In this document: in pieces, positions 8,394 to 37,736 of the stretch | Position numbering within the stretch: the first letter of the stretch is position 1 | How the letters are laid out: each line of letters begins with the position of its first letter | NCBI RefSeq assembly: GCF_019665785.1 | Contig: NZ_CP081149.1 | Location: forward strand, 992,001 to 1,056,000 | From: Deefgea piscis | GTDB taxonomy: Bacteria > Pseudomonadota > Gammaproteobacteria > Burkholderiales > Chitinibacteraceae | Length of the DNA stretch: 64,000 nucleotides | Direction: 5' to 3' | The notes under the pieces: generated by a model | Seen by the model: the letters and a program-made list of their open reading frames with translations, nothing else | Database searches by the model: none | What the model was told of the DNA's origin: nothing | Made by a program: the position numbers and the translations under genes

Positions 8394-8410
8394 AGGGTAT
8401 GGATGTGTCA

Positions 8411-9183: not shown

Positions 9184-9186
9184 TTC

Positions 9187-13084: not shown

Positions 13085-13093
13085 CATAGTCCT

Positions 13094-13270: not shown

Positions 13271-13362
13271 AGCTACAGTCGCGCGACTCAAACGATTGTG
13301 ATTTAACGTATCAACATCAAATCTGAACAAAGCCCTAAGGGTTTGCGCGCTGATCAGGTACC

Positions 13363-13386
13363 GTGCCGCAGGCACTTAAAACCAAG
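13363..13386. repeat. 24-bp direct repeat with an internal GTGCC-GCA-GGCAC hairpin, copy 1
   Basis: An identical 24-base sequence occurs at 16442-16465. Both contain the small stem GTGCCGCAGGCAC followed by TTAAAACCA. The two copies lie on either side of the phnT2-phnU2 gene pair, just after phnU2 and just after phnS2 in transcription order. Confidence 0.7.
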
Positions 13387-13438
13387 AATACTTAAGCCAA
13401 ACCAACTCGTTGCTACGCTGAGATTTAGCCCTGCCTCC

Positions 13439-22920: not shown

Positions 22921-22952
22921 GCTTAGTTTTGGTTATACTCTGAGTAAATAGT

Positions 22953-23029
22953 CTAGGGCCTGTTGATGTTTGGCATTCTGCTGCAGCTTACGCAGTTTTC
23001 GCGGTGAATGCAGCGTCAATAGACCATTA
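22953..23029. repeat. Short decayed relative of the MITE
   Basis: The left end TAGGGCCTGTTGATGTTTGG and the right end GCGTCAATAGACCATTA resemble the two ends of the element at 5757-6042, with several mismatches. The interior is only about 40 bases and retains TTTTCGCGG. It lies between the divergent kinase and yicC genes, close to the yicC promoter. Confidence 0.55.
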
Positions 23030-23084
23030 GTGTCAGCCCTACCGTCGTAAGTGTAAAGCGGCGCGTATTAAAGAAGGAAGTTAT

Positions 23085-23951: not shown

Positions 23952-23993
23952 TGTTTTTTGACGTGTCATGACAGAGCATTTTTCCCCTCTAAG

Positions 23994-24015
23994 CCCAGCA
24001 AATGCTGGGTTTTTT
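23994..24015 (+). terminator. Intrinsic terminator of yicC
   Basis: CCCAGCA, loop AA, TGCTGGG followed by six T residues. It is flanked on both sides by copies of TTGACGTGTCA (23958-23968 and 24021-24031), of unknown meaning, and lies just outside the integrative element. Confidence 0.85.
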
Positions 24016-24059
24016 GTTTCTTGACGTGTCACGCCATGCGGCGTAATCTCACGTTTAGC

Positions 24060-24080
24060 TTGTACCCAAGCATGTACCCA
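24060..24080. repeat. Candidate left attachment/arm repeat of the element
   Basis: TTGTACCCAAGC followed by A and TGTACCCA; the right copy at 33539-33559 differs only in that A being T. A related copy in reverse orientation lies at 24091-24112, right next to it. The clustering before the integrase could mean integrase arm sites rather than the crossover core itself. Upstream GTGTCACGCCATG (24027-24039) resembles GTGTCGCGCCGTG at 33524-33536. Confidence 0.55.
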
Positions 24081-24144
24081 AAGCCAATTTTGGGTACAAG
24101 CTTTGGGTACAAGGTGTTTTCATACAGGGGTGGGGTATAGGGTT

Positions 24145-25419
24145 ATGACTAAGTTTACGGATGTTGGGATTAAGGCGCTGATTACGGGCGATATTCGCTT
24201 TGAAGGACGTGCTGACTCGATTGTTGCCGGCTTAGTTTTGAGTTTTAGAAAGAATGACAAAGTGCCGCGTTGGTTGTTTCGATATTCTTTTGCTGGGACA
24301 CCGCGAAAAATGGTCATCGGTAACTATGGGAATATGAGTTTGTCGGAAGCTAGAGCTCGGGCGCGTGAGCTGGCCGCGCGCGTGCAGCTTGGCTATGACG
24401 TACAAGGTGAAAAAGCCGCACGTATTGTCGAGGCTGTAGCGGCCATTGAGGCCGAACGCGCTTCGATTACGGTCAATGAGCTGGCCGAGGAATATTTAAA
24501 CCGTGAAATTATCGGGCGCGTTAAACATCCAAATATCCCGATCAATCAATATGAAAAAAATATCCGGCCACTTATCGGCGCATTAAAAATCGAGGCGGTC
24601 ACGTCTTTGCATGTGGATGACATTCTTGAAGCTGTACGCAAGCGTGGAGCGCCCAGTATTGCGAATAAAGCATTACGGATGCTGCAAAACATGTTCGACT
24701 ACGCCATACGCCGCCGCATGATCGCGGTAAATCCAGCCGCCGCATTTCGCACTAAAGACGCTGGCGGTGAATTAACTGCTAGAGATAGGGCGCTGTCGCG
24801 TACCGAGCTGGCCTTGTTATTTGCCGCGATGAAGCAGGCCAAAGGCTTTAGTGTGCAAAACGAATTAACCATTAAGCTGCTGCTGGTGCTGTGCTGTCGC
24901 AAGATGGAATTATGCGCGGCGCAATGGGATGAATTTGATTTGGATGCGGCAATCTGGCACATGCGCGACGATGTGAAGACTGGGAAGGGCTTAGATGTGC
25001 CTTTGCCGCCGTGTGCTGTGGAATGGTTGCGCGAGTTGAAGCGCCTATCTGGCGCTAGTCCGTATATTTTGCCGGCAAGAAAAATGCAGCACCGTGGATT
25101 ACCGCATATTTGCGAAGGAACAATCGGCACAGCCATGGGCAAGCTCAAACCACACATGCCTGATGTGGAGGCATTTACCGTGCATGATCTACGCCGCACT
25201 GCGCGTACTCAATTGGCTGCGCTGGGCGTGGACGTAATCACTGCTGAGCGATGCTTGAATCACAAAATCAAAGGCGTACACGGCACGTATGATCGGCATG
25301 ATTACTTTGACGAACGCAAAGACGCGCTAATTAAGTGGGCGGACTTAATGCGAGAGCTGGAGCAGGGCGGGAATGACAAAGTGGTGAATCTAAAAGACAA
25401 AAAGCGTAAAGCCGCTTAA
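24145..25419 (+). CDS. P4-type tyrosine integrase
   Basis: Site-specific recombinase of 424 residues that would insert and excise the element. The N-terminal DUF4102 arm-binding domain is followed by a SAM-like core domain and the catalytic domain. Catalytic residues are Arg242 (CCRKMELCA), a lysine at 268 or 271, His337 and Arg340 (FTVHDLRRTA), His363 and the nucleophile Tyr372 (GTYDRHDY). CCRKMEL departs from the usual TGxRxGEL but keeps the arginine. ATG at 24145 starts the conserved MTKFTDVGIKAL; the longer frame overlaps the repeats. It looks complete and potentially active. Confidence 0.92.
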   Translation: MTKFTDVGIKALITGDIRFEGRADSIVAGLVLSFRKNDKVPRWLFRYSFAGTPRKMVIGNYGNMSLSEARARARELAARVQLGYDVQGEKAARIVEAVAAIEAERASITVNELAEEYLNREIIGRVKHPNIPINQYEKNIRPLIGALKIEAVTSLHVDDILEAVRKRGAPSIANKALRMLQNMFDYAIRRRMIAVNPAAAFRTKDAGGELTARDRALSRTELALLFAAMKQAKGFSVQNELTIKLLLVLCCRKMELCAAQWDEFDLDAAIWHMRDDVKTGKGLDVPLPPCAVEWLRELKRLSGASPYILPARKMQHRGLPHICEGTIGTAMGKLKPHMPDVEAFTVHDLRRTARTQLAALGVDVITAERCLNHKIKGVHGTYDRHDYFDERKDALIKWADLMRELEQGGNDKVVNLKDKKRKAA

Positions 25420-25425
25420 TCGAGT

Positions 25426-25484
25426 TTGCCGCGCCTATCTCGACGGAGAGAAAACGGGTAGCCCCTGACCCGCTGGCGCGGCAA
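25426..25484. other. Nested stem-loop after the integrase gene
   Basis: TTGCCGCGCC (25426-25435) pairs perfectly with GGCGCGGCAA (25475-25484). Inside, CGGGT (25455-25459) pairs with ACCCG (25468-25472) around AGCCCCTG. The 59-base structure lies between the integrase stop and the next gene and has no T run, so it is not a simple terminator. In P4 itself a small structured CI RNA controls immunity. Whether this is an equivalent is only a suggestion. Confidence 0.5.
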
Positions 25485-25521
25485 TCAATTACAGGGATTG
25501 CGCCGAAGGGGGGCGCGTAAT

Positions 25522-26316
25522 ATGAGCATGAATGATTATTCATGGCTAAATAACGTAATGTACGACTCGATTACAGAAAAGTTCACATTACATGACTGGT
25601 CAAGAGCATTAGCATTTAGAGCTGAATTATTAAGCGACTCCAGCAGAGCTGAAGATGAGCTAATCAGATTCGGGCTAAGGCATTTATTTGAACGCCCAAC
25701 TCATTTAAACACCTTAGCTGACTTGATTGCTTCAGGGGAATATATCGACCTTACTCACCTGAAAATATTCGACGCGTATTGTCCAAATCCAGCAATTTCC
25801 AATCTTACGACTGGCCTTGCGTTGGCCGCAGCTAGGGATATTCTTGAGCGCCCTGAGATGGGCGAAGTTGATGATGCACCACTCTCGGTGTATGACTTTC
25901 ATGCGCCAGAAAATTTTCTATCAATGCCTTTGCACTTTATTGATGCTGAAGCAATATCCTACATCGGGGTTAATTTAGAGTTGCCCGACGCTTTGCTATT
26001 TGAGAGGTTTAAAGATTGGCTAGCAGCTACGCGGCATGAGTTGGAGATAAGCAAGCCGCGACGGGTGTTTACTAAGGTGGATACTCAGAAATGGCGCGAT
26101 ATGAAAATATTGCAGTATTTAGATCTTAGTATTTATTTGCAAAGTACCGGAGTGGAATTAGGCCAGCAGCTAATAGGAGTTTTGTTGTTTCCTAATACTT
26201 ACGATATTTCACCAAGCGAAAGAATAAGGAAAGTCGTAGCGCCTTTGGCTGAAAAATTAATCTCTTATCAAGTGCTCAGTGCCCTGCGAACCCAAAACCA
26301 ACAAATCTGCGACTAA
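25522..26316 (+). CDS. Unrecognised element-encoded protein, possibly DUF6387-like
   Basis: Soluble protein of 264 residues without signal peptide or membrane helix. I think segments such as WSRALAFRAELL, LRHLFERPTHLNTLADLI and the PRRVFTKVDTQKWRDMKILQ region place it near the phage/island family DUF6387, but this is recollection. ATG 25522 (MSMNDYSW) is chosen because AAGGGG lies upstream. Its codon use is more AT-rich than the replication genes that follow. A terminator follows the gene, so it forms its own unit between integrase and alpA. Accessory genes in this position of satellites are often variable cargo. Confidence 0.55.
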   Translation: MSMNDYSWLNNVMYDSITEKFTLHDWSRALAFRAELLSDSSRAEDELIRFGLRHLFERPTHLNTLADLIASGEYIDLTHLKIFDAYCPNPAISNLTTGLALAAARDILERPEMGEVDDAPLSVYDFHAPENFLSMPLHFIDAEAISYIGVNLELPDALLFERFKDWLAATRHELEISKPRRVFTKVDTQKWRDMKILQYLDLSIYLQSTGVELGQQLIGVLLFPNTYDISPSERIRKVVAPLAEKLISYQVLSALRTQNQQICD

Positions 26317-26333
26317 TTCGGAGTATTTTTTTT

Positions 26334-26359
26334 AAAAAAACATTCCGGAGTGTTTTTTT
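26334..26359 (+). terminator. Terminator after the cargo-like gene
   Basis: AAAAAAACATTCC paired with GGAGTGTTTTTTT, a stem with one G-T pair, ending in a T run. TTCGGAGTATTTTTTTT just upstream is a partial direct copy. It separates the 25522 gene from the alpA-led operon. Confidence 0.75.
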
Positions 26360-26430
26360 GTAATTTCCGAGCCTTCAAATCCACGCTGTGACAAATTAAA
26401 TTGGCTGCACTTTTCAACAAGGTGCAAGCC

Positions 26431-26718
26431 ATGCCACAACGTACACAGCAACCAACCACCCAAACCAAAGCACCCGCCAAGGTTATCCCGATTAGCCAGC
26501 CGCAAGCGCCGCTACTGGCAACGTATGGCGCTTTGCCTGCAACGGGCTTTATCCGTCAGCGTGAATTACTCGAAATCATCCCGTTTTCAGCATCAACACT
26601 GTGGCGGCGCGTTCGTATGGCTACGTTCCCTGCGCCGACCAAGCTATCCGAGCGCGTGACCGCGTGGCAGTGTGAGGCCGTGCGCCAGTGGCTTGATGAG
26701 CAAGGGGGGGCGCAGTAA
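26431..26718 (+). CDS. AlpA-family regulator
   Basis: Small DNA-binding protein of 95 residues. The helix-turn-helix is in FIRQRELLEIIPFSASTLWR, followed by RVRMATFPAPTKLSERVTAW and VRQWLDEQ, the standard AlpA/excisionase pattern. The first 35 residues are a proline- and glutamine-rich leader. ATG 26431 with AAGG upstream is preferred over an earlier TTG. In satellites, AlpA-type proteins switch on integrase or excision. It is the first gene of a tightly overlapped operon running to 31630; its TAA shares one base with the next ATG. Confidence 0.85.
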   Translation: MPQRTQQPTTQTKAPAKVIPISQPQAPLLATYGALPATGFIRQRELLEIIPFSASTLWRRVRMATFPAPTKLSERVTAWQCEAVRQWLDEQGGAQ

Positions 26719-27539
26719 TGAAAAAAGCCGCCTCACTGAATCAACAGCAAGACGGCCTTGGGGCTCGGGCAAGAGCTGGTGCAGATATTAAGCCTGCGCC
26801 AAAACCAAAGCAACAACGTCAGAAAAGCACCATTACGCAAAGTCACCTTATCCCGTTCGCACTGGGCGGCATTGAGGCGTTTTCTTGCGGTGACGAATTG
26901 CGGGTTTCAGTTCGCCATTTGTGTGAAGCGTTTGGGATTGATTCAAGAACCCAGCGTCGTAAGATGGCGAACAATCCACGTTGGACGTGGGGTCATATGA
27001 CCTCACACGATACAGCAGGCCGACCACAAGAGATGGTAACTTTGCCACTTGAACAAGTGCCCGCCTTCCTCAATTCAATCAACAGCAACAAAGTGAAGCC
27101 AGAAGTACGGCAAGCCTTGCTGACGTACCAAGACGAATGCACCAAAGCGCTGTTTTCGTACTGGACAACAGGCAAGGCCGAGCAACAAACCGCCGCGGCA
27201 CAGATGGCGTTTCAAGTTGCTGACACGCTGGCGGTATTTAAAGCTGAATACGCCAACATGTATGGCAAGGTCGCTGGTGCTGACCCCGACCCCGACCCGC
27301 GCATGTATGGACAGATTCAAGCAGTACTGAACAAGGCGGTGTTTGGTGTTTCCAAGCTGCCCGACTTGCCGCGCAAGGATTTACCTAAAACAGCATTAGA
27401 GCGCCTCAAGGCCGCAGCGCACATTCTGCGGAAAACGTTTTACCGTGGGGAATCCCTCAAGGTTGCCGCCGCGCAAGTCAGAGCTGCTTTCCCTGAGCCA
27501 GTGCTGGTGATTGAAATCAATGTGGAACTTGCCGCATGA
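26718..27539 (+). CDS. Antirepressor-like protein with P22 AR N-terminal domain
   Basis: Protein of 273 residues. Residues about 45-150 show the phage antirepressor N-terminal domain (P22_AR_N): IPFALGGIEAFSCGDELRVS, VRHLCEAFGIDSRTQRRKM and MVTLPLEQVPAFLNSINSNK, then QALLTYQDECTKALFSYWT. The rest (FQVADTLAVFKAEYANMYGK and a leucine-rich C terminus) is unassigned. The first 40 residues are low-complexity. In satellites such proteins often counter a repressor, possibly that of a helper phage; this is inference. ATG overlaps the alpA stop by one base. Confidence 0.8.
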   Translation: MKKAASLNQQQDGLGARARAGADIKPAPKPKQQRQKSTITQSHLIPFALGGIEAFSCGDELRVSVRHLCEAFGIDSRTQRRKMANNPRWTWGHMTSHDTAGRPQEMVTLPLEQVPAFLNSINSNKVKPEVRQALLTYQDECTKALFSYWTTGKAEQQTAAAQMAFQVADTLAVFKAEYANMYGKVAGADPDPDPRMYGQIQAVLNKAVFGVSKLPDLPRKDLPKTALERLKAAAHILRKTFYRGESLKVAAAQVRAAFPEPVLVIEINVELAA

Positions 27540-27988
27540 ACCCGATTGCACAGAAAAAAGCACTTGCCAGCCAGCACGCAGGTCTTGATAATGGCGGCGC
27601 TGTCTCACTTGAGGCAGACGAGATTGGCGTCTCGAATACGATAGCGGGTAAGCCGCTGCAAAGCGGTATTTTTATGCCCGTTTGCACCACAGTTGCACCT
27701 TCAATGGTGGGGCGTGGTGGGGGCTACTTCGGTAGCGTCGGTTTCTATCGTGCCGATACGCCAACCCTGCTGCGTTCCTACCTCCTTCGATTGGCGTCGA
27801 AAGGTGGGGATTTGACCCCAACGATAGGTGCATATCTTATGCCAAAATTCGCCCGTACTTTTCTTACGTATTCCCTTGTATGTATTATCACGCTTGCCGT
27901 AGAGCGTAATACCCCTATTGCCGTAATCGCCTTGTCCATTGCTGCGCTGGTTCTGCTGCAAGTGATTGGAGGGCGTGACCATGCGTAA
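27536..27988 (+). CDS. Ash-like satellite protein with a C-terminal membrane helix
   Basis: Protein of 150 residues. The middle part, APSMVGRGGGYFGSVGFYR then TPTLLRSYLLRLASKGGDLT, resembles the Ash / Icd-like region found before replication genes in P4-type elements. After it comes a hydrophobic segment (SLVCIITLAVE and AVIALSIAALVLLQVI, about 118-146). The N-terminal 45 residues are unlike anything I recognise. ATG overlaps the antirepressor stop by four bases. Its last eight bases contain the start of the next gene. Whether the Ash-like part is protein-coding or a constrained nucleotide region is uncertain. Confidence 0.5.
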   Translation: MNPIAQKKALASQHAGLDNGGAVSLEADEIGVSNTIAGKPLQSGIFMPVCTTVAPSMVGRGGGYFGSVGFYRADTPTLLRSYLLRLASKGGDLTPTIGAYLMPKFARTFLTYSLVCIITLAVERNTPIAVIALSIAALVLLQVIGGRDHA

Positions 27989-28223
27989 GCCCATCGACTT
28001 AGAGCAATTCATTCCCGTCACAGATACCGCCGCCGCTGCGCTGCTTGGCGAAACCGCCACGACCTCAGAATGCACGCTGGAAGTGTGTCTACGCTGCGCC
28101 CTACATTTACTCGAACTCAATCAGCAAGACCCCGAATCCCGTTATAACGGCCTGATGGCGCTAGATTATCTGGGTGCAGTGGTTGAGGCCGTCAACGGTA
28201 AGAGGGTGAATCACCATGCGTAA
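27981..28223 (+). CDS. Small element protein, paralogue of the 28370 gene
   Basis: Protein of 80 residues starting MRKPIDLEQFIPVTD, mainly helical by composition, with a leucine-rich middle (CLRCALHLLELNQQD) and YLGAVVEAVNG near the end. The 28370 product has the same plan (PFDLATLVPVS, LLSLVLELLNEG, YLSLVVQASK), so the two look like a duplicated pair. GGAGG precedes the ATG. It overlaps both neighbours by eight bases, each time within ATGCGTAA. No function is known; small acidic helical proteins of this sort are common in satellite operons. Confidence 0.65.
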   Translation: MRKPIDLEQFIPVTDTAAAALLGETATTSECTLEVCLRCALHLLELNQQDPESRYNGLMALDYLGAVVEAVNGKRVNHHA

Positions 28224-28350
28224 ACCGAGCCGAAACTCAGGGATTCAACAGACCGCGTTCGCCAGTCGTCGCGCCGCGTCTTTGCTGCTGATGCGGAGCT
28301 ATACCCGCGACACGCGCCCCAAGCCCCCCAAGCCCAAAAAAAACCGCTAA
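28216..28350 (+). CDS. Very small basic protein, 44 residues
   Basis: Reading frame MRKPSRNSGIQQTAFASRRA continuing to a proline/lysine tail ending KKNR. It begins inside the stop region of the previous gene through the same ATGCGTAA junction found at 27981 and 28668, with GAGGG upstream. About a quarter of the residues are Arg or Lys, so nucleic-acid binding is possible. It is too short for family recognition. It could alternatively be untranslated spacer. Confidence 0.45.
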   Translation: MRKPSRNSGIQQTAFASRRAASLLLMRSYTRDTRPKPPKPKKNR

Positions 28351-28369
28351 GCCATAGGAAATCCATCAA

Positions 28370-28675
28370 ATGACTACGACCAATATTCTGGGCGGCGGCG
28401 CTGCTCAAACTCAAAACCACGCAGCACTGATTGAGAACCTAATGAAACAGCCATTTGACCTTGCTACGCTAGTGCCGGTGAGTGCCGACCTAGAAGCTGC
28501 AACCGTTCGTGTTATGTCGTGCGGTGAATTGTTAAGCTTGGTACTTGAGCTGCTGAATGAAGGCATTGCCAAGCAGCAACTTGAAACCCATTGCCAGCTT
28601 GCGACGCATTACCTATCACTGGTCGTACAGGCCAGTAAGGCCGTGGCGGCTACTGGGGAGCGCAACCATGCGTAA
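28370..28675 (+). CDS. Small element protein, paralogue of the 27981 gene
   Basis: Protein of 101 residues. From residue 25 (MKQPFDLATLVPVSADLEA) it parallels the 80-residue product of the gene at 27981, including the leucine-rich helix LLSLVLELLNEG, ATHYLSLVVQASKAV and the ending NHA. The first 24 residues are extra. AGGA lies about ten bases before the ATG. Its last eight bases hold the start codon of the primase gene. Function unknown. Co-translation with the primase suggests a role in element replication or its control. Confidence 0.65.
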   Translation: MTTTNILGGGAAQTQNHAALIENLMKQPFDLATLVPVSADLEAATVRVMSCGELLSLVLELLNEGIAKQQLETHCQLATHYLSLVVQASKAVAATGERNHA

Positions 28676-29762
28676 ATCATTCAGCGAGCAAGTTAAAGCG
28701 GCTGCTGCGGGGCGTTGGCCGGAGACTTTGCAAAGCATGGCTATCCCTGCCAAGTCCCTAGACGGTAAAAATCATCCTTGCCCAGCGTGCGGCGGCGATG
28801 ATCGCTTTCAATTTACCGCGCGCGGTGCTGATGCTGACTATGGCCGCTTTGCTTGCCGTGGCATGGATTCGGGCGGTGGTGATGGTTTCGCCTTGGTGAT
28901 GCACGTTTTCAACCTGAGTTTCCCTGAGGCGGTGATAGCCGTTGGGCGAGTGCTGGGTATGGATCAGCAGCATAACGCGTGTACCACTTTTACTTTGCCG
29001 GAATTACCCAAACATAAGCCAACAGAAACCCAACTTAAAACCCAATTCAAAACCCAAGACCGCACGGCGCAACGACAAGCGTTGTTTGATTCGGGTGTGG
29101 CGCTCAGCTCAAGCAATATGGCGGGGCTTTATTTGTTGAATCGTGGCCTAGCTGGGCGCTATTTACCGACTCAGGCCGATAGCCCATTACGACACATTGC
29201 TGCGCTGGACTATTGGCATGAATCAAACGGTAGCAGCAAAAGATTAAAAACCACACCGGCATTGATTGCCAAAATCCAAAAGCCAAACGGCGCGTTAGCA
29301 GGGCTGCACCGCATTTACCTTGAACCCAAAGGGCATAAGTTGGTGCTGCACGATGAAACGGGCAAGGCATTAGCCAGCAAAAAGCTACAGCTTGCCCATG
29401 ATGGCGCTCTCAGTGGCGCGGCGTGTCGCTTGCACCCGATTGGCGATGATGGCCGCTTGGCGCTGACTGAGGGCATAGAAACCGCCTTGGCGGTGCATCA
29501 GCTCACAGGGCTGGCGGTGTGGTCGTGCATTAATGTGGCAATGCTTAAAACCGTGGTGCTGCCGGATAGCGTGCGCGAGGTAGTGATTTACGGCGACAAC
29601 GATTTACCCGACCACAAGGGCAAGAATGCAGGCAAAGAAGCCGCGTACATCTTGGCGGCACGGCTGGTGGGCGAAGGCCGTACGGTGAAAGTCATGCTAC
29701 CGCCAGAAGCGGGTAGGGATTGGCTGGATGTGCTGAATGATGACAATGCGGCGGTGGCGTGA
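28668..29762 (+). CDS. P4-type primase with zinc ribbon and Toprim domain
   Basis: Replication protein of 364 residues. Near the N terminus CPACGGDDRFQF (Cys38, Cys41) begins a primase zinc ribbon. The second half reads FACRGMDSGGGDGF, with only one of the two expected cysteines, so the ribbon may be altered. The Toprim_3-type catalytic region follows: LALTEGIETALAVHQLTGLA and VVIYGDNDLPDHKGKNAG. It would make primers for element replication. ATG 28668 overlaps the upstream gene by eight bases; the longer frame is out of register with that operon logic. Its stop overlaps the DUF927 start (TGATG). Confidence 0.85.
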   Translation: MRKSFSEQVKAAAAGRWPETLQSMAIPAKSLDGKNHPCPACGGDDRFQFTARGADADYGRFACRGMDSGGGDGFALVMHVFNLSFPEAVIAVGRVLGMDQQHNACTTFTLPELPKHKPTETQLKTQFKTQDRTAQRQALFDSGVALSSSNMAGLYLLNRGLAGRYLPTQADSPLRHIAALDYWHESNGSSKRLKTTPALIAKIQKPNGALAGLHRIYLEPKGHKLVLHDETGKALASKKLQLAHDGALSGAACRLHPIGDDGRLALTEGIETALAVHQLTGLAVWSCINVAMLKTVVLPDSVREVVIYGDNDLPDHKGKNAGKEAAYILAARLVGEGRTVKVMLPPEAGRDWLDVLNDDNAAVA

Positions 29763-31630
29763 TGAAAAACGAAATTGAAGCCATTCAAGCCAGCGAGTCG
29801 CCACAAACCCAAACTAAAACCCAACAGAAACCCAGCGCGGCGGAGTTAGCGAGCCCTGATAGCGTTGTGCAATTTGTGTTGCCCAGCAAAGCTGAATTAG
29901 TTGGTGAAGTCAGGCCATTCTATGATTTTCAGCGCGGTGAGCTGGTGCATGTTGGGGTCAAACACGATAAAGATGGCACAGCGCATACCGCAGCTGTACG
30001 CCTTTGCCGTGAGTTCGACATCATTGGGCAAGGCGTTGATACCTACGGCGACCATTACCGCCTGTTGAGTTGGGAAGATTGCATTACCGGAGCCGAGCAG
30101 GCTATCGCCCTACCTAGTAGCCAAATTGGCGAGCGTGAGGGCTGGCAATTGCTCAATAGCAAAGGCTTGGCAGTAACCAGTAAACGCGCCGATAAAGACT
30201 TGTTAGCTGATTATTTGCATAACCACGGTAGCAAAGAGCGCTACACAATAGCGAATCAAAGTGGCTGGCAACAAGGCGCGTTTGTACTACCGACAGGCGA
30301 AGTGATTGGTGAGCCCGATAGCCGCTTATTTTATCCTGCGGCGGCAACGTATCGGCCGGCATTTACACCCAAAGTTACCAGTCAAGCATGGCGCGACACC
30401 GTGGGCGCATTAGTTAAAGATAACCCACTGCCCATGACGGCGGTAGCGTGCGCGCTGGCTGGTGCTGTGTTGGAGTTGATCGGGGCGCGTGATGGGATTG
30501 GCCTGCATTTACATACCGAAACATCAAGCGGTAAATCTACTTGTGGCGATGTGGCGGCGAGCATTTGGGGTAATCCGGCCAAGCTGGTGCAATCGTGGGA
30601 TGGTACGGGGGTTGGTTTAACGAATTCTGCTGAATTTGCCAATAGCATGATGCTGTACTTGGATGAAATCGGCGCGGGGGATGCCCGCAAGATGGGTAGT
30701 ACCATTTACACCATGCTCAACGGCGTATCTCGTACCCAAGGCCGCAAAGAAGGCGGCAACCGCGCCAAGCGAACTTGGCTCATGACCTTGGTTTCAACGG
30801 GTGAAATTCCGATGAGCCAATTTCTGAATGAAGGCGGTCATGCTGTGCGCGGCGGGCAAGAAATACGGATGCTGGATATTCCGGCTGATACTGGGCAATT
30901 CAAAGCATTTGACTGCATTCATGGCCGCAAAGATGGTGGTGAATTTGCCATTGAATTAACCGAAGCGGCGCGAATGCATTACGGCACGCTTGGCCGTGAA
31001 TTTGTGGCGTGGCTGATTGCTAATAAGGGCGCAGTAAACCTGCGGATTAAATCGGCGGAAACTCGCATGTTGGCCGTCTTGCCGCCTCAAGCCGCGCCTA
31101 CTGTGCGCCGTGCGACTCGCAAGTTTGCCATACTGGCTGCGGCGCTAGAAATGGCCGCTGATGCCGGACTAACCGGATGGACGTGCGAGGAGTCATTTAA
31201 AGCTGTGGGTGTGACGTGGCAGCGCTGGCTTGCAGTGTTTGGTCTGGCGAGCCGTGATGATGAAAGGCTGATCGAGCAGGCGAACGGAATATTGGCCGCA
31301 AATCAGTTTGCACGGTTTGTATCGCTACCAATGACCGACAAAGAGCCAAATACAATAAACATGATGGGCTACAAGCGGATTCATGCTGGAGAAGATATTT
31401 TTTATGTTTTACCCCACGCATTTAAGGATGAAATCATTAAAGGCTATGAGCTAAAGAAAGCCATAAAGGTCTTGCATGAGGCGGGAATGCTGGAAAGACC
31501 CACAGGCCGCGATGCTTGGACAACGACTATCGGTAAAAGCATGGGTAATGGCTACAAAATGAGGTTACGGCCTTGCGAAGATAACGTAAACGAGGTCAGC
31601 AGTGATGTGGCTATACACGCGATAAAATAA
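29762..31630 (+). CDS. DUF927 helicase-like replication ATPase
   Basis: Protein of 622 residues with a DUF927 core. The P-loop is HTETSSGKST (about 241-250) and the Walker B acidic pair is MLYLDEIGAGDA (about 287-297). The region AKRTWLMTLVSTGEIPMSQF lies further on. DUF927 proteins occur beside primases in satellites and islands and probably unwind DNA at the origin. The N-terminal 120 residues may be a separate module. Start ATG 29762 overlaps the primase stop by one base; a GTG one codon earlier is less likely. It is the last gene of the operon, and the two iteron arrays follow. Confidence 0.85.
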   Translation: MKNEIEAIQASESPQTQTKTQQKPSAAELASPDSVVQFVLPSKAELVGEVRPFYDFQRGELVHVGVKHDKDGTAHTAAVRLCREFDIIGQGVDTYGDHYRLLSWEDCITGAEQAIALPSSQIGEREGWQLLNSKGLAVTSKRADKDLLADYLHNHGSKERYTIANQSGWQQGAFVLPTGEVIGEPDSRLFYPAAATYRPAFTPKVTSQAWRDTVGALVKDNPLPMTAVACALAGAVLELIGARDGIGLHLHTETSSGKSTCGDVAASIWGNPAKLVQSWDGTGVGLTNSAEFANSMMLYLDEIGAGDARKMGSTIYTMLNGVSRTQGRKEGGNRAKRTWLMTLVSTGEIPMSQFLNEGGHAVRGGQEIRMLDIPADTGQFKAFDCIHGRKDGGEFAIELTEAARMHYGTLGREFVAWLIANKGAVNLRIKSAETRMLAVLPPQAAPTVRRATRKFAILAAALEMAADAGLTGWTCEESFKAVGVTWQRWLAVFGLASRDDERLIEQANGILAANQFARFVSLPMTDKEPNTINMMGYKRIHAGEDIFYVLPHAFKDEIIKGYELKKAIKVLHEAGMLERPTGRDAWTTTIGKSMGNGYKMRLRPCEDNVNEVSSDVAIHAIK

Positions 31631-31873
31631 CCGAAAACTCCGAAACCCCGAAAATATAACTCTTTAAACCTTATTATTGATTGGGTTTACTTGTTTTCGG
31701 TGAGTTTTCGTTTTGATCTAAGTTTTCGTTTTATCGATGAGCGAAGTTTTGGATAACCAAAGGCCACCGAAAGTTTATGCTATTTCCGAAAATAACCGAA
31801 AACTTAAGATGCTAGTATTTATGCTGGGTAGCTGGCGGCATTTTCGGGATTTCGGTGTTTTCGGGGCTTTCGC
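31631..31873. repeat. Iteron array 1: CCGAAAA/TTTTCGG repeats, candidate replication origin
   Basis: At least twelve copies of CCGAAA or its complement occur in 243 bases. Examples are at 31631, 31640, 31648, 31694, 31705, 31723, 31767, 31786, 31796, 31841, 31851 and 31858, in both orientations. The stretch directly follows the DUF927 gene. P4 also has its origin elements next to the replication gene, made of short iterated sites in both directions. Function as origin is inferred from position and pattern. Confidence 0.65.
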
Positions 31874-32075
31874 ATTATTATAAAGAGATCAGAAATTGTA
31901 ATGCTGTATGGATGTATATTTGTTTAATTGGGAACGAATGAGGATTGTTCTGCTTTAGTGAAAATGAACATCCAGTTGGTGAGTTGCTGGTGCTGAAGAG
32001 TAGATATTCTTTGGAGTGATCGAAGCAATTACAAAAAAGCGTAGTTATTGCTAAGCTTACTTTGATTATTTGGTG

Positions 32076-32220
32076 TGTAACAAATACTTGTAACAGTGAC
32101 TGTAATGAGCATTGTTACAGCTACAAGCCGCATTCCTTAAGGGATTTGTACTGTAACAGAGGCATTGACTGTAACAGATAATACGGATTTTCTCTGTCTT
32201 TCAAACTACCTTTTGTTACA
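32076..32220. repeat. Iteron array 2: TGTAACAG repeats
   Basis: Six copies of TGTAACA(G) or its complement lie in 145 bases: 32076-32082, 32089-32096, 32113-32120 (inverted), 32152-32159, 32170-32177 and 32214-32220 (inverted). A half copy is at 32101. Array 1 and array 2 share no sequence, so different proteins probably bind them. The 200 bases between the arrays and the 150 bases after them are AT-rich and without a gene. Confidence 0.65.
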
Positions 32221-32374
32221 AGTAAGCAATAAAAAATCATCATCCCAGTAAATTGCTTTTTGCTGTGGGTTACTTCATACCAGATGTGGTCTGATGAATT
32301 ATGCATTTTAAGAAAAACTCGACATTCGATTAAAATAGCTTGAATTTGAGAGCAAAAATTATAGGGGTGACTCA

Positions 32375-32509
32375 ATGATGAACAAGGAACAAATCCGCAA
32401 GAAACTTAACGCGCAAACGCCAGAAATGAAAAAAAAGCTACTTGAAATGATCGTACAAGAACTTCTCCTTCGCCAAACTAAGCGAGCAAAAACAGCTATT
32501 TCACGTTAA
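32375..32509 (+). CDS. Very small lysine-rich helical protein, 44 residues
   Basis: Frame MMNKEQIRKKLNAQTPEMKK continuing to TAISR. AGGGGTGA gives a good ribosome site for ATG 32375 or for the adjacent ATG at 32378. The composition (many K, L, E, Q, no Gly or Pro-rich loop) suggests one or two amphipathic helices. No family is recognised. It directly follows iteron array 2, so a role as a small DNA-binding regulator is conceivable but unproven. Confidence 0.5.
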   Translation: MMNKEQIRKKLNAQTPEMKKKLLEMIVQELLLRQTKRAKTAISR

Positions 32510-32567
32510 ACAGCAAAAACTTGTTACGCAGCGCTACTGACCACATTTATTTGCCAATCATGAGAGG

Positions 32568-33224
32568 ATGAAATGGCGCACAATTCAATCTCTTATTGCA
32601 TGGGCATACCACCGTCAAGGCATTACCGCCTATTCGCGCTGGATGAGTCATAATCCGACAGGCCAAGGAAGAAATCCTGATGAAGTGGCGGCGCATGTTA
32701 TCGACACTATTAACGTTCTACCCCCTCACCAAGCAGCCCTTATTCGTGCAGCCTTTACAGGGAGGCCGATACACATTGATAAGCTAGCTGAAACAATCCC
32801 AGAGCTAATGCCTTGCAAGCATGATGGTTGTATTGCGCTGCCATTTGAATATCGACAGAATTGCGTGCTGCAATGGACTGGTGCAATTCAACAAATCAAC
32901 TTTAGAGCCGCAGGCAAAACCTATTGGCCGAATCATAGTCACATGAAAGCTGCGCGATTGTACTGGCGATTACGTGATAATTTGCTAGACCCTTGGTTGA
33001 GCGAAGCATTGGCAACACTAGCGGTAAATCATCAATCCTTGATCGAAATGCAGCCAGCCCAGCCCAGCAAGCCAAAATATAAAAGTGCCTCAAATCAATT
33101 ATCGAGAGCGCAAATAAAGCTAATCTCAGTTCTGGCAGCTAAAGAAATCAGCAATGAAGTAATTGCTAAAATAATTGCTTTAATTCCAGATTTGGTGAGT
33201 AACGAAAAATCGGGTAAACAGTAA
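32568..33224 (+). CDS. Unknown element protein, 218 residues
   Basis: Soluble protein without recognised domain. Features are an aromatic-rich start (IQSLIAWAYHRQGITAYSRW), VLPPHQAALIRAAFTGRP, a possible zinc-related CKHDGC near residue 83, and a helical C terminus (RAQIKLISVLAAKEIS). AGAGG abuts the ATG with no spacing, an unusual arrangement that may mean weak translation. Position near the right end of the element, after the origin-like region, is where satellites often carry accessory cargo. It is followed 18 bases later by a 70-residue gene. A phage late-gene regulator or a defence factor cannot be told apart from sequence alone. Confidence 0.6.
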   Translation: MKWRTIQSLIAWAYHRQGITAYSRWMSHNPTGQGRNPDEVAAHVIDTINVLPPHQAALIRAAFTGRPIHIDKLAETIPELMPCKHDGCIALPFEYRQNCVLQWTGAIQQINFRAAGKTYWPNHSHMKAARLYWRLRDNLLDPWLSEALATLAVNHQSLIEMQPAQPSKPKYKSASNQLSRAQIKLISVLAAKEISNEVIAKIIALIPDLVSNEKSGKQ

Positions 33225-33241
33225 AACGAAGGAATTGCATA

Positions 33242-33454
33242 ATGGTTGGCAGCTCAAAATTAGATGAGTTATTAACGCAGCAAGAACTTGAGTCGCTGAA
33301 TGGCGTATATTTTGCTGAGCTAGATGAACGTCCCTATCTCACATTTGAAGGGGTACGCGAAGCAAGCCGCGAACGAATGAGAAAGCGAAGGCGAGAGGCT
33401 ATTGAAAAGTATGAAAGTGAAAAGCTACAAGATTTGCCAACAAGCACAGAATAA
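33242..33454 (+). CDS. Unknown element protein, 70 residues
   Basis: Acidic N-terminal half (DELLTQQELESLNGVYFAEL), then a strongly charged helix (EASRERMRKRRREAIEKYES). AAGGA lies upstream of the ATG. It is 18 bases after the 218-residue gene and is the last gene before the right repeat of the element. The two may form one unit. The charged second half could be a coiled coil. No family recognised. Confidence 0.6.
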   Translation: MVGSSKLDELLTQQELESLNGVYFAELDERPYLTFEGVREASRERMRKRRREAIEKYESEKLQDLPTSTE

Positions 33455-33538
33455 TCGCCCATGGTGGTTTTTTTGTTGGCGCGAGATATTTGCAATTAAG
33501 CTAAAATTAACCTCGAATACTGGGTGTCGCGCCGTGGG

Positions 33539-33559
33539 TTGTACCCAAGCTTGTACCCA
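33539..33559. repeat. Candidate right attachment repeat of the element
   Basis: TTGTACCCAAGC, T, TGTACCCA: the same as 24060-24080 except for one base, in the same orientation. It lies 85 bases after the last element gene and about 120 bases before gmk. The related GTGTCGCGCCGTG stands at 33524-33536. Confidence 0.55.
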
Positions 33560-33680
33560 GTGATAAATATGCATTTACAGAGCCTAGCTAGAATGCGGGT
33601 TTGAGTGTGATACTTAGCAATCAAGTGCAAATATTGAGTAAACTATTGCGACTTGTTTGCTGGTTGTAGAGGATTTAAAT

Positions 33681-34295
33681 ATGGTCAAAGGTAATTTGCT
33701 GGTGGTGACTGCACCATCAGGCGCAGGAAAAACGACTTTGGTGGCAGCTTTGCTCGCTGCCGATAGTCAAGTTCAACTCTCGATTTCATTTACCACTCGC
33801 CCGCCACGTGAAGGCGAAGTGAATGGTAAGGATTACCACTTTGTCGATCGCGCCGAATTTGAGCGAATGATTGCGGCGGGTGAATTGTTGGAATTTGCCG
33901 AGGTGTATGGCAATTATTACGGCACTTCACAGTTGTGGATTAATGAAGTCATGGCCAATGGCCGAGATATTTTATTGGAAATCGATTGCCAAGGTGCCGA
34001 GCAAGTGCGTCGTTTATTCCCTGAAGCCATTGGCATCTTTATCTTGCCACCTTGCTTAGCCACTTTGGAAAGTCGGTTGCGTGGTCGTGGCAAAGACAGC
34101 GATGAAGTGATCGCGCGCCGTTTGGCAGTCGCCAAAGAAGAGATCAATCATGTCGATGAGTTTGATTTTGTGATCGTGAATGAGCATATCGATGATGCAG
34201 TTCGTGACATGATTGCAGTCGTGCGCACACAGCGACTGACCTTAGCGCGTCAATCTGAGCGCCATACCGCCTTGATTTCAAGCTTAAAAGGCTAA
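33681..34295 (+). CDS. gmk: Guanylate kinase
   Basis: Enzyme of 204 residues that phosphorylates GMP to GDP in nucleotide synthesis. The P-loop is APSGAGKTTL at 11-20. The GMP-binding part includes SFTTRPPREGEVNGKDYHFV, and YGNYYGTS follows. ILLEIDCQGAEQVR holds the Walker B acidic residue. Length and motifs are those of an intact enzyme. ATG 33681 begins the domain and has AGAGGA upstream. rpoZ and spoT follow, the standard betaproteobacterial order. The element inserted upstream has probably removed read-through from yicC, so gmk must have its own promoter in 33560-33680. Confidence 0.95.
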   Translation: MVKGNLLVVTAPSGAGKTTLVAALLAADSQVQLSISFTTRPPREGEVNGKDYHFVDRAEFERMIAAGELLEFAEVYGNYYGTSQLWINEVMANGRDILLEIDCQGAEQVRRLFPEAIGIFILPPCLATLESRLRGRGKDSDEVIARRLAVAKEEINHVDEFDFVIVNEHIDDAVRDMIAVVRTQRLTLARQSERHTALISSLKG

Positions 34296-34311
34296 TTTTC
34301 GCAGTAAGTGA

Positions 34312-34317
34312 TATAAT
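34312..34317 (+). promoter_or_regulatory. Candidate -10 box of rpoZ
   Basis: TATAAT stands 49 bases before the rpoZ start, in the 70-base gap after gmk. No good -35 element is found at the right distance, so the promoter call is tentative. Confidence 0.4.
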
Positions 34318-34365
34318 ACGCGGTTTCGCCCATCCACGGGCTAGCCGCACTCGGAGATAAACCCT

Positions 34366-34575
34366 ATGGCACGTGTAACTATTGAAGATTGCCTTGATCG
34401 CATTCCTAATCGTTTTGACCTGACTTTGGCGGCTGCATTTCGTGCGCGCCAAATCGAAAACGGTTCAACCCCACAAGTAGAAAACAACGGCCGTGAAAAA
34501 CCAACCGTGTTGGCATTGCGCGAAATGTCGGCAGGTTTGGTCGGTGTTGATATTCTGACTCGTACTCGTTCTTAA
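34366..34575 (+). CDS. rpoZ: RNA polymerase omega subunit
   Basis: Protein of 69 residues with the omega signature [19 protein letters not shown] and [11 protein letters not shown], ending [12 protein letters not shown]. It helps assemble RNA polymerase through the beta-prime subunit and forms part of one ppGpp site. GGAGATAAACCC precedes the ATG. It lies between gmk and the spoT-type gene, nine bases from the latter, as in many beta- and gammaproteobacteria. Confidence 0.95.
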
Positions 34576-34584
34576 TTGTAAACG

Positions 34585-36774
34585 ATGCAGAGTCTCTCTA
34601 TCACTTCAGCGGATGTACCGGCGTTAATTGATGCGCCGGAAGTGATTGAGGAGGCAAGCCTTTTTTTAAATGAAAAAACGGCTTACCTCAAAAATGAAGA
34701 CCGAGAGATGTTGTTCTCGGCTTTTTTGTTTGCCGAGGCGGCGCATCGTGGTCAGATGCGTCAGTCTGGTGAACCTTATATTTCGCATCCCTTAGCTGTA
34801 GCGGGCATTCTTACGCTATGGAAACTGGACGCACAAGCTTTAGCTGCTGCTTTATTACACGATGTGATGGAAGACAGCGGTGTGACTAAGCTCGAATTGA
34901 CTGAGCGCTACGGCAAAGCCGTTGCCGAGCTGGTTGATGGCATGAGCAAGATCGACAAGCTGGAGTTTCAAAGTAAAGAAGAAGCTCAAGCTGAGAATTT
35001 CCGTAAAATGCTCTTGGCCATGGCGCGTGATTTACGCGTGATGCTGATTAAGCTGGCGGATCGTTTGCATAATATGCGCACGATGGACTCAATGCGGGCG
35101 GATAAGCAAAAACGCATTGCCCGCGAAACCATGGAAATTTACGCGCCGATTGCCAATCGCATTGGCCTAAATGGTGTTTATCAAGAGCTCGATGATTTAG
35201 CGTTTAAATACATTCATCCGCGGCGATATTATGTTTTATCCAAAGCATTAAAAGCAGCGCGCGGCAATCGCCGAGAAGTGCTGCAAAAAATCCTCGATTC
35301 AATTCAAGCCAAATTACAGACTCAGCACATTGAGGCGGTGGTGACTGGTCGAGAAAAAAACTTATTTTCGATTTATCGCAAAATGCAAGAAAAGCATCTG
35401 AGCTTTTCTGAAGTCTTGGATATTTATGCGTTTCGGGTCATCGTTAAAGACGTTGCTCATTGCTATCTGACTTTGGGGGCTTTGCACGCGCTGTATAAGC
35501 CGATTCCGGGTAAGTTTAAAGATTACATTGCCATTGCTAAAACCAATGGTTATCAAAGTTTGCACACGACCTTATTTGGCCCTTACGGTACGCCGATTGA
35601 GGTGCAAATCCGCACCAGTGAAATGCATCGTATTGCCGATGCAGGTGTTGCCAGTCACTGGATGTATAAAAGCGGTGATGAAGGCTTTTCTGAAGTTCAG
35701 CAAAAAACCCATCAATGGCTGCAGTCTTTGCTTGAGCTGCAATCTGAAAGTGGCGATGCGGTTGAGTTTCTTGAGCACATCAAAGTCGATTTATTCCCGG
35801 ATCAAGTGTATGTGTTTACGCCCAAAGGCACGATTTTAAGTCTGCCCAATGGCTCGACCTGCGTTGATTTTGCCTACGCCGTGCATACCGATATTGGCAA
35901 CCGCTGTATTGCTGCCAAGGTCAATCACGAGCTGGTGCCACTGCGCAATAAACTTAAAAATGGCGATCACGTCGAGATCGTCATGGCCGCGCATGCCAAG
36001 CCTAATCCAAGCTGGCTGGCCTTTGTCACCACCGGTAAAGCGCGCTCACAAATTCGGCATTTCTTACGCACCATGCGCTTTGATGAATCGGTGCATTTGG
36101 GCGAGCGCTTGCTCAATCAAGCTTTTTCCGCCTTGCATCAGCCTTTGCAAGTCAGTGATGAAGTGTGGGAAAAATATTTGCGCGAAAGTGGCGAAAAATC
36201 GCGTGATTCGGTACTCGCCGATGTCGGCTTAGGGCAAAAACTAGGCGTGGTAGTGGCTAAGCGCTTATTGCAACTAGCCGGCACTTGGTCGGAAGACGGA
36301 CGCCAAGGTAAAAAACCGATGTCGGTGTCGATTCGTGGTACCGAAGGCATGGCGATTCAATTTGCGCGCTGTTGCAATCCAATTCCTGGCGATCCGATTT
36401 TAGGTTTTGTAAAAAAAGACCAAGGCTTGGTCGTGCATACGCATGATTGCCCACAAGTATCTAAAGGTCGCATCGACGCTGAAAAATTGATCGATGTCGA
36501 TTGGGATCCTGAAGTTGCTCGAATGTTTGATGTGCCGGTGAAAGTATTAGCAGAGAATGAGCGCGGTACTTTGGCGGCATTAGCGGCTGCCATTGCCGAT
36601 GCCGATGCAGATATTTCGGCGGTAACGATGGGCGATATGGTCGATTCACATGAGCGTTATTTGAGCGTGCAATTTACGCTGCAAGTGAGTAATCGCTTAC
36701 ATTTAGCGCGGGTGTTAAAGAGTTTACGCAGTTTGCCGACGGTGTATCGTTTGCAGCGGGTGCGCGCGCTGTAG
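34585..36774 (+). CDS. spoT: Bifunctional (p)ppGpp synthetase/hydrolase
   Basis: Rel/Spo homologue of 729 residues. The HD hydrolase domain has LLHDVMEDSG with His92-Asp93 and LADRLHNMRTM. The synthetase domain contains VLDIYAFRVIV, GKFKDYIAIAKTNGYQSLHT and EVQIRTSEMHRIAD, with its catalytic residues present. The TGS domain (VFTPKGTILSLPNGSTCVDF), the zinc-finger/helical part (FARCCNPIPGDPILGFV) and a C-terminal ACT domain follow. Both active sites look intact, so it should make and degrade (p)ppGpp. The gene lies nine bases from rpoZ and ends at a strong terminator. Confidence 0.93.
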   Translation: MQSLSITSADVPALIDAPEVIEEASLFLNEKTAYLKNEDREMLFSAFLFAEAAHRGQMRQSGEPYISHPLAVAGILTLWKLDAQALAAALLHDVMEDSGVTKLELTERYGKAVAELVDGMSKIDKLEFQSKEEAQAENFRKMLLAMARDLRVMLIKLADRLHNMRTMDSMRADKQKRIARETMEIYAPIANRIGLNGVYQELDDLAFKYIHPRRYYVLSKALKAARGNRREVLQKILDSIQAKLQTQHIEAVVTGREKNLFSIYRKMQEKHLSFSEVLDIYAFRVIVKDVAHCYLTLGALHALYKPIPGKFKDYIAIAKTNGYQSLHTTLFGPYGTPIEVQIRTSEMHRIADAGVASHWMYKSGDEGFSEVQQKTHQWLQSLLELQSESGDAVEFLEHIKVDLFPDQVYVFTPKGTILSLPNGSTCVDFAYAVHTDIGNRCIAAKVNHELVPLRNKLKNGDHVEIVMAAHAKPNPSWLAFVTTGKARSQIRHFLRTMRFDESVHLGERLLNQAFSALHQPLQVSDEVWEKYLRESGEKSRDSVLADVGLGQKLGVVVAKRLLQLAGTWSEDGRQGKKPMSVSIRGTEGMAIQFARCCNPIPGDPILGFVKKDQGLVVHTHDCPQVSKGRIDAEKLIDVDWDPEVARMFDVPVKVLAENERGTLAALAAAIADADADISAVTMGDMVDSHERYLSVQFTLQVSNRLHLARVLKSLRSLPTVYRLQRVRAL

Positions 36775-36798
36775 CAAAAACAGCGCAAGCTAAATCAA

Positions 36799-36832
36799 GC
36801 ATTCCCCTCGATCGAGGCGAATGCTTTTTTTT
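36799..36832 (+). terminator. Intrinsic terminator of spoT
   Basis: GCATTC and GAATGC enclose CCCTCGATCGAGGC, giving a long imperfect stem followed by eight T residues. It slightly overlaps the stop of the convergent DUF4870 gene. Confidence 0.85.
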
Positions 36833-37175
36833 ATTTTAGTAAGCGTAAATTGAATGGCAGGCGATAAGGCTGCGCTTTGCTGGCGTTAACGACCCCTAAA
36901 ATGCAAAAAATCAAATGGCAAATTGCGACCACCGGCAAGATTAAAAAACCGATCAAAACAAACATCAGTACCCAGCCTACGGCGTAGCCTAGCATGGTGG
37001 TGATCGACCAATTAAGTGCTTCTTTGGCTTGATCAGTTACTGCGGCATCGTCTTGCTTGACTAAATAAATAATCAAAGACGGGATAAAACCAAAAAATAA
37101 AGTGCCAAGCCAGATCAGCAAAATAATATTTTGGCTTTCGCGACTCGGTGTTGGGTTGATTTCGATTTCATTCAT
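36831..37175 (-). CDS. DUF4870 small membrane protein
   Basis: Membrane protein of 114 residues. Three hydrophobic segments (about 18-40, NIILLIWLGTLFFGFIPSLI; 58-80, MLGYAVGWVLMFVLIGFLI; and 82-98) and the connecting motif KEALNWSITTML fit the DUF4870 (Tic20-like) pattern. Function is unknown. ATG 37175 with AAGGAG upstream is chosen over a longer frame. Convergent with spoT, monocistronic. Confidence 0.8.
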   Translation of the reverse strand: MNEIEINPTPSRESQNIILLIWLGTLFFGFIPSLIIYLVKQDDAAVTDQAKEALNWSITTMLGYAVGWVLMFVLIGFLILPVVAICHLIFCILGVVNASKAQPYRLPFNLRLLK

Positions 37176-37407
37176 AACAACTCCTTGTTCGTGCTTTGGG
37201 CGACGCATTCAATTGACAAGCATACTACAAACTTACTAATCCTTGGTGCGTTAGTCAAAATTCACCATCCAGAGTCGTTCTACGGCCAAGCGCGCGCAAA
37301 TTTTACCCAGATCGACAGCCGCAATGGGGGTTAGAGCTGCGCGGCGTCAAAAAAACACCCAGTTAGCATGATAAACTGACGATCTCTTTGCCTCGGGGGC
37401 TGATTTC

Positions 37408-37611
37408 ATGATTCAAATTTCAATCAATGGAGAAGCGAAAACTTTTCCTGCTGCGCTCAATGTCACTGAGTTAGTGGTGGCTTTAGATTTGCTCGGTAAG
37501 CGGATTGCGATTGAGCGCAATGGTGAAATCATTGCAAAAAGTCAATATGCAGCGACCATGCTAGCCGATGGGGATGTGCTGGAAATGGTGGTTGCTGTGG
37601 GTGGTGGTTGA
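37408..37611 (+). CDS. thiS: Sulfur carrier protein ThiS
   Basis: Ubiquitin-like protein of 67 residues ending in the required Gly-Gly (VVAVGGG), the site of thiocarboxylate formation for thiazole synthesis. MIQISINGEAKTF and LLGKRIAIERNGEII are typical of ThiS. It is followed by thiG after a 125-base gap. I looked for a TPP riboswitch in the 230 bases upstream and saw none of its conserved CUGAGA...ACCUGA elements. Confidence 0.92.
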   Translation: MIQISINGEAKTFPAALNVTELVVALDLLGKRIAIERNGEIIAKSQYAATMLADGDVLEMVVAVGGG

Positions 37612-37736
37612 GGTATAAGCCTGTAGATGTTACTCAGTATTGGTTTCAGGAATATACCTTTAAAGATATCCATTCCGCCTATAGGCCGCTTTGGTGTTGA
37701 GCGCAAAATAATTCATTGCTACGCAGGGAGTTTACT

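Follow-up and report, generated by a model that had tools for sequence, protein, structure and literature searches.

Two arrays of different repeats lie close together in an integrated satellite element of this genome, and the explanation that we rate as rather probable is that array 1 is a replication origin and array 2 a separate cis-regulatory cluster. As judged from sequence, array 1 is very probably the origin read by the Rep protein of a PICI/SaPI-type satellite, because it follows the DUF927 gene directly, in the layout of SaPIs and PICIs, and because its iteron word co-varies with the C-terminus of Rep. An earlier note on this DNA had taken the two different repeats to mean either two initiator proteins or an origin plus some other site; the latter holds, in that array 1 has the marks of an origin and array 2 is without them.

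The satellite element and its genes

The analysed window is a stretch of 64,000 nucleotides (G000:C1:992001-1056000) in a genome of 3.58 Mb. The features of the element, which lies between genes that we take, from their ORF translations, to be yicC and gmk, are listed in Table 1. Its genes run in one direction in the order integrase, DUF6387, AlpA-type regulator, P22_AR antirepressor-like protein, small ORFs, Toprim primase and DUF927 helicase (Rep), followed in the same direction by array 1, array 2 and the ORFs of 44, 218 and 70 aa. Neither capsid or terminase genes nor a second initiator gene were recognised among the scanned element ORFs, and profile searches with the 44-aa protein found no family match above the cut-off.

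Table 1. Positions of the satellite element and its features within the window.
Feature	Position	Strand	Basis
Integrated satellite element, about 9.5 kb	24057..33560		Gene order and terminal TGTACCCA-type repeats
Tyrosine integrase	24103..25419	+	PF00589, PF22022, PF13356
AlpA-type (PF05930) regulator/excisionase	26401..26718	+	E 2e-7
Antirepressor-like protein (P22_AR_N)	26718..27539	+	
Toprim primase, start codon uncertain	28557..29762	+	PF13362
Rep, DUF927 initiator helicase	29759..31630	+	
Putative left half-origin of array 1, six iterons	31630..31730		
AT-rich spacer within the left half of array 1, 31/40 A/T	31653..31692		
Putative right half-origin of array 1, six iterons	31766..31865		
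Array 2, six TGTWACA near-palindromes	32076..32220		
Basic 44-aa protein, AGGGGTGA just before it	32375..32509	+	
218-aa protein, predicted Q/AlpA-type antiterminator fold	32568..33224	+	
70-aa ORF	33242..33454	+	Sequence, profile searches

The terminal repeats point both ways at the left end (24057-24118) but are direct copies at the right end (33539-33560), and are possibly integrase arm sites or att repeats. Two related loci, L031 and L033, show ATACCCCCA and CTACCCCC clusters at places like those of the TGTACCCA repeats in the window.

The nearest copy of the element (L030) is found in G021, a genome of the same genus, and its Rep is 99% identical. Towards its right side (28000-33500), the element shows 45 differences from this copy, about 0.8%, as against mostly 6-10% for the host DNA that flanks the element (21867-37626 compared), and this low divergence suggests a recent transfer of the element into the same site in the two genomes. 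The stretches 24500-25000 and 27500-28000 are about 8% different, and 25511-26484, including the DUF6387 gene, gives no alignment between the two copies.

Architecture of array 1

The claim of at least twelve CCGAAA sites in 243 bases needs some adjustment: ten exact copies, in both orientations, occupy 234 bp (31631-31864), and counting the variant ACGAAAA, present at 31705 and at 31723, brings the total to twelve. With the 9-mer ACCGAAAAC at up to two mismatches, 13 sites are found in 251 bp, compared with 0.9 expected from the window density. The array begins at the Rep stop codon and consists of two halves of six iterons, each oriented +++---, of which the right mirrors the left. Sites of the left half start at 31630, 31639, 31647, 31693, 31704 and 31722 (spacings 9, 8, 46, 11, 18) and those of the right half at 31766, 31785, 31795, 31840, 31848 and 31857 (spacings 19, 10, 45, 8, 9), with a weak thirteenth site at 31746 between them. 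The AT-richest 40 bp lie inside the left half, with iterons on both sides, and not between the mirror halves. The inverted arrangement of the iterons explains the fold score of the array as DNA (z = -5.31). No second ACCGAAAAC cluster (three or more sites at up to one mismatch) exists in the surrounding 18 kb.

Both arrays are real: when the local sequence was shuffled with its dinucleotides preserved, none of 2000 trials contained ten copies of any 6-mer within 250 bp, as in array 1 (largest 5), and none of 2000 contained six copies of any 7-mer within 150 bp, as in array 2 (largest 4). Over the whole window, neither word is enriched (CCGAAA, 47 against 45.4 expected; TGTWACA, 7 against 5.5). 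Clustering, not window-wide abundance, sets both words apart. One equally dense 7-mer cluster does occur in the window, with seven copies of CGCAGAG in 150 bp at 57382, and the stretch 57380-57470 is dense in CGCAGAG and GAGACGCA repeats.

Probable origin arrays across DUF927 relatives

A search with Rep matched 20 of 43 family genomes at 26 places, 25 of which (the window element, L003 and L030-L052) were examined with longer flanks; several are mutually close, which makes the independent cases fewer than 25. At 18 of the 25 loci, a repeat cluster lies no more than 300 bp beyond the Rep stop, and at six it appears to be displaced by 0.76-3.4 kb (L032 +1773, L038 +782, L040 +758, L048 +967, L049 +1015, L050 +3095), while the remaining locus, L046, has none near Rep. 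The 26th place, L022, is a fragment whose short flanks hold no convincing array. Among 399 genomes of the order, three besides the window genome match Rep at E <= 1e-100, in four places, all of which carry clusters, with only four copies in L068. Of three phage records, L200 and L202 have a cluster and L201 does not.

The iteron words differ between elements: ACCGAAAAC in the window, ACCGCATAC in L003, ACTGCATAC in L032, ACCTGATAC in both L031 and L033, ACAACAAAC in L034, ACCACCAAC in L035, and GGTG-type words in L068-L071. L003 is a second element of the window genome, with a Rep 71% identical, a different word and a spacing that is mostly kept. The spacing 9-8-46-11-18 / 44 / 19-10-45-8-9 of the window (the weak 31746 site omitted) recurs as 9-8-45-11-18 / 34 / 20-21-45-8-9 in L032 and as 9-8-47-11-19 / 30 / 21-11-45-8-9 in L070; in L034 and L035, 55 stands in for 45, a change of about one helical turn. 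A left clamp (9, then 8 or 9, then 45-47 or 55) is present in nine of 11 elements, the exceptions being L031 and L068, and a right clamp (45, 46 or 55, then 8-9) in eight, the exceptions being L003, L031 and L034. At up to two mismatches, the number of sites is 13 in the window element, 15 in L003, 12 in L032, 11 in L031, 15 in L033, 9 in L034, 12 in L035, 6 in L068, 11 in L069, 12 in L070 and 13 in L071; the words and the two-mismatch limit were chosen by hand, and machine choice gave mostly identical or one-base-shifted words. Six plus six is not universal: the counts of L003, L031, L033, L034, L068 and L069 depart from it, the right half of L034 is degenerate, and L033 has extra copies.

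Other sequences were observed beside these arrays. In L003 (G000:C1:1710000-1729900), the stretch 3603-14739 comprises this second DUF927 element and, after it, ORFs that we take to encode a metallopeptidase and an HsdR-like protein of type I restriction, and the place to the right of its origin looks like a cargo spot. In L032, an ApeA-type HEPN protein (PF18862, PF18739) is encoded at 10285-11784, between rep and the displaced array. A non-iteron stretch, ATGC(G/T)G, adjoins the right clamp in five aligned elements.

Co-variation of the iteron word with the C-terminus of Rep

Rep can be matched to SaPIbov1 Rep and SCCmec Cch along almost its entire length, and at its C-terminus two predicted helices (551-558, 564-573) are followed by a predicted beta hairpin (strands 588-591, 595-601), in the order typical of winged helices. 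In Mantel tests over all 5040 permutations of seven close elements, which are few and related and whose iteron words are short, the distance between words correlated at 0.85 (p = 0.0004) with that between the C-terminal ~60 aa of Rep and at 0.50 (p = 0.025) with that of the rest of the protein. The partial correlation was 0.795 (p = 0.0004) for the C-terminus given the rest, and 0.075 (p = 0.36) for the rest given the C-terminus. When words were chosen by machine and when the set was enlarged to 12 elements, the partial correlation of the C-terminus remained significant (0.41 to 0.82, p <= 0.0013) and that of the rest given the C-terminus was not significant; in the 12 elements the rest of Rep taken alone also correlates (0.72 with hand-chosen and 0.54 with machine-chosen words). 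The iteron word changes along with the C-terminal ~60 residues of Rep, and the rest of Rep adds nothing further.

In the mechanism that we propose, Rep would read the iterons through its C-terminal helix-turn-helix and wing domain, and each half-origin would presumably dock one Rep hexamer; that six iterons correspond to one hexamer has, from the sequence, about an even chance. Two facing helicases would then melt the AT-rich spacer DNA, and replication, presumably bidirectional, would start with the Toprim primase of the element. The origin, ordinary in kind, is easier to read than most: its spacing scaffold is conserved while the words can be exchanged, which offers a directly testable code relating the iterons to the C-terminal domain of Rep, and the two co-resident elements with different words offer a natural test of compatibility.

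Split arrays in distant relatives

At five of eight distant DUF927 loci, a second cluster of the same word lies kilobases away. It mirrors the first to within 1 bp in four of them, namely L036 (9-9-42-12-10 and 10-12-42-9-9), the closely related L037 and L039 (9-9-53-24-10 and 10-24-53-9-9) and L051 (9-9-31-23-9 and 9-23-32-9-9), and does not do so in L047; L041, L042 and L045 have a single cluster. The label P4-like, which had been used for these distant loci, was dropped, as the helicase of P4 belongs to another family. The mirror-image arrays suggest how compact origins could become bipartite. In L031, an extra cluster of its own iteron was observed near the left end, from -7447 to -7374 relative to the Rep stop; its spacings of 17, 45 and 11 agree with the left-clamp pattern and would fit a half-origin.

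The predicted antiterminator

The 218-aa protein is predicted to be a Q/AlpA-type antiterminator. Its model, built from the six relatives (query included) that a large protein search returned, has an N-terminal ring-forming part and a C-terminal helix-turn-helix, as in Q/AlpA; the resemblance was found with VIA-align only, and Foldseek against the PDB gave nothing better than E 1.1. Two of the relatives, P0002 and P0003, are 79% and 72% identical to the 218-aa protein. Pfam, PHROGs, PADLOC and NCBIfam held only weak sub-threshold rows for this protein, and no relative was confirmed by tblastn of phage records with the 218-aa and 158-aa proteins or by IMG/VR searches with these two and Rep. A former assignment as small terminase was abandoned after the fold match, and the suggestion that the product of the gene at 32568 binds DNA has gained support, given the predicted fold. 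The 6 promoter-like matches in 31500-33500 do not exceed the chance expectation of 4.9. If confirmed, an antiterminator of this type encoded by the satellite would be a way for it to govern late transcription.

Array 2: sites, distribution and possible roles

Array 2 starts 445 bp past Rep, 211 bp from array 1 (about 200 bases in the earlier note), and 155 bp separate its end from the 44-aa gene downstream. The six sites reported in 145 bases are all exact matches to TGTWACA (TGTAACA or TGTTACA; 32076, 32089, 32113, 32152, 32170 and 32214; spacings 13, 24, 39, 18, 44), although only the three at 32089, 32152 and 32170 correspond to TGTAACAG. The word is a near-palindrome whose orientation rests on the centre base alone, so that the statement that both orientations occur in each array is true of array 1 and of array 2 only by way of that base.

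A DNA search of 200 genomes matched array 2 in two, the window genome and G021, and the 753 bp that include it (32031-32783) show no differences between these copies, compared with 14 differences in array 1 and the spacer (31604-32030). The near-identical G021 copy aside, array 2 was not found at 23 other family DUF927 loci. A three-site pattern matched six of 399 genomes of the order, including the window genome: in G103, TGTWACA arrays of five to six sites each (L074, L077) occur at a DUF927 gene whose product is 30% identical to Rep, so that words of this type can possibly serve as iterons elsewhere; L072, on a short contig of G237 where Rep finds no match, shows nine sites spaced like iterons; and the other matches are in G077, G056 and G211 (L073, L075, L076). 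An IMG/VR pattern scan gave matches ranked by cluster size, seven of which were inspected. Among the matches listed, L164, L090, L106 and L159 have 7-8 TGTWACA sites within 160 bp, just ahead of ORFs that we take to encode the large subunit of terminase, and many others have spacings in multiples of three, as in coding repeats.

Two candidate roles were rejected. For a structured RNA, one sub-threshold Rfam snoRNA match and a fold z of -1.86 (13 of 200 shuffles as good) were obtained; as for an autoregulatory site of the AlpA-type regulator, the element has no TGTWACA outside array 2. LexA-type sites were looked for by eye, and none were noticed.

Our leading interpretation, whose probability we put a little short of even, is that array 2 is a regulatory cluster of the downstream operon (the 44-aa protein, the predicted antiterminator and the 70-aa protein). 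The array would be a set of near-palindromic operators or the loading region of this antiterminator itself, and would couple late or accessory expression to induction. Array 2 is not needed for the 218-aa gene, as a Chitinibacter element has a 64% identical protein and lacks the array. An operator or loading region is more likely than a second origin, whether a crr-like part or the origin of a second initiator, which we regard as highly improbable. The split arrays of distant relatives, the half-origin-like cluster of L031 and the occurrence elsewhere of iterons with this word (L069, GGTGTAAC, contains TGTAAC, and L074 and L077 were described above) speak for such an origin; however, the second arrays of distant loci share the word of the first, and that of array 2 differs from that of array 1, its near-palindromes lack the 9-8/9-9 clamp spacing, and no second initiator gene was recognised among the scanned ORFs of the element. 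Array 2 is also absent from the 23 family loci and from the Chitinibacter element, and the idea of two initiator proteins is not supported.

That array 2 is instead a target of a helper-phage protein (a packaging site, late-promoter element or origin decoy) exploited by the satellite seems unlikely. PICIs can carry helper pac/cos sequences (PMC6092414), and the IMG/VR clusters before putative terminase genes point the same way, but the four contigs were found through the motif itself, seem to form a single lineage and, in contrast to array 2, have their sites in pairs 9-10 bp apart, and the genome has no further pair of TGTWACA sites at a gap of 0-30 bp. A relic or neutral repeat cluster is decidedly unlikely: its restriction to the window element and the G021 copy would agree with this, but all six 7-mers are exact, and the 753 identical bp contrast with the 14 differences in array 1 and the spacer. 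It is very unlikely that array 2 serves partition, incompatibility or copy control by binding a small element protein, for instance the 44-aa one: short near-palindromic repeats beside an origin and a small basic protein encoded nearby would suit this, but that protein has no family match above the cut-off, the element is integrated and sister elements lack the site.

Taking array 2 as a regulatory cluster, we tentatively advance a joint reading, which is rather doubtful as a whole. A six-iteron unit, one per Rep hexamer protomer, would be shared by DUF927-Rep satellites, with two facing units in the compact origin and, elsewhere, mirror units kilobases apart (compare ori and crr of P4). Words would be rewritten together with the C-terminal wing of Rep, which would make co-resident satellites compatible, and in the present element an unrelated operator cluster by the origin would couple replication to the satellite's Q-type antiterminator.

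Comparison with known systems

The earlier note's comparison with P4, in which ori and crr were said to have the same repeat type, was incomplete: the P4 record has three 'ori type 2 repeats' (9176-9205) near the type 1 repeats, so that an ori with two types of repeat close by is nothing new, and the alpha protein is a different helicase. P4 ori has six type 1 repeats (spacings 10, 11, 22, 43, 10), and crr has five annotated per repeat, or six or seven at up to two mismatches, one crr repeat showing spacings of 9, 43, 11, 7 and 14 at that limit. The systems are alike in their clusters of about six short repeats in both orientations, with 43 in place of 45, and in a second repeat type near ori. 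They differ in that alpha is a fused primase-helicase of the D5/DUF5906 type, not DUF927, that ori and crr are kilobases apart, and that the P4 repeat words and type 2 repeats match neither array; the element has neither an alpha-type protein nor the same iteron in a separate ori and crr. The likeness may be convergence, because the helicase families differ.

The antiterminators AlpA of P. aeruginosa and phage Q21 resemble the 218-aa protein in predicted fold, unlike in sequence, where no family match is found. The DNA element of AlpA consists of one GGGACG that lies between -10 and -35 (PMC9371919), and so differs from array 2 both in word and in having one site instead of six. Array 2 matches none of the known kinds tested.

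The Pseudomonas phage-like element phiAH14b carries int, AlpA, a Rha-like protein, a Toprim-type primase and, by match, a DUF927 helicase, followed by a GGGGAAC array of 10 sites (+52..+280); its iteron word is different, and the same scan found no TGTWACA cluster. SCCmec Cch and Cch2 are also initiator helicases with a C-terminal dsDNA-binding domain, and Cch2 has iterons just downstream of its gene (PMC7581432). Cch is a structural match to Rep, whereas Cch2 is of another helicase family and has only three direct repeats.

The closest likeness is to SaPIs and Gram-negative PICIs, which share the int-AlpA-primase-rep order on a single strand, the origin directly 3' of rep, two sets of short iterons together with AT-rich DNA, and a DUF927-type initiator helicase. 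They differ from the present element in that it has a separate Toprim primase and that its host, a Deefgea relative, is a betaproteobacterium. Searches of the open-access literature found no description of the mirror spacing pattern or of the Rep/word co-variation, and the six-plus-six mirror scaffold and this co-variation may be new in detail. SaPI Rep reportedly reads a downstream iteron origin through its C-terminal domain, apparently as two hexamers (PMC7581432), and origins of Gram-negative PICIs have an AT-rich region between two iteron sets right after rep (PMC6092414). Array 1 and Rep, by their sequence features, fit this known kind: integrase, AlpA-type regulator, primase and rep run in a single direction, the putative origin lies directly 3' of rep with two iteron sets around AT-rich DNA, and homology, predicted structure and co-variation point to a Rep of the SaPI/Cch kind with a C-terminal DNA-binding domain.
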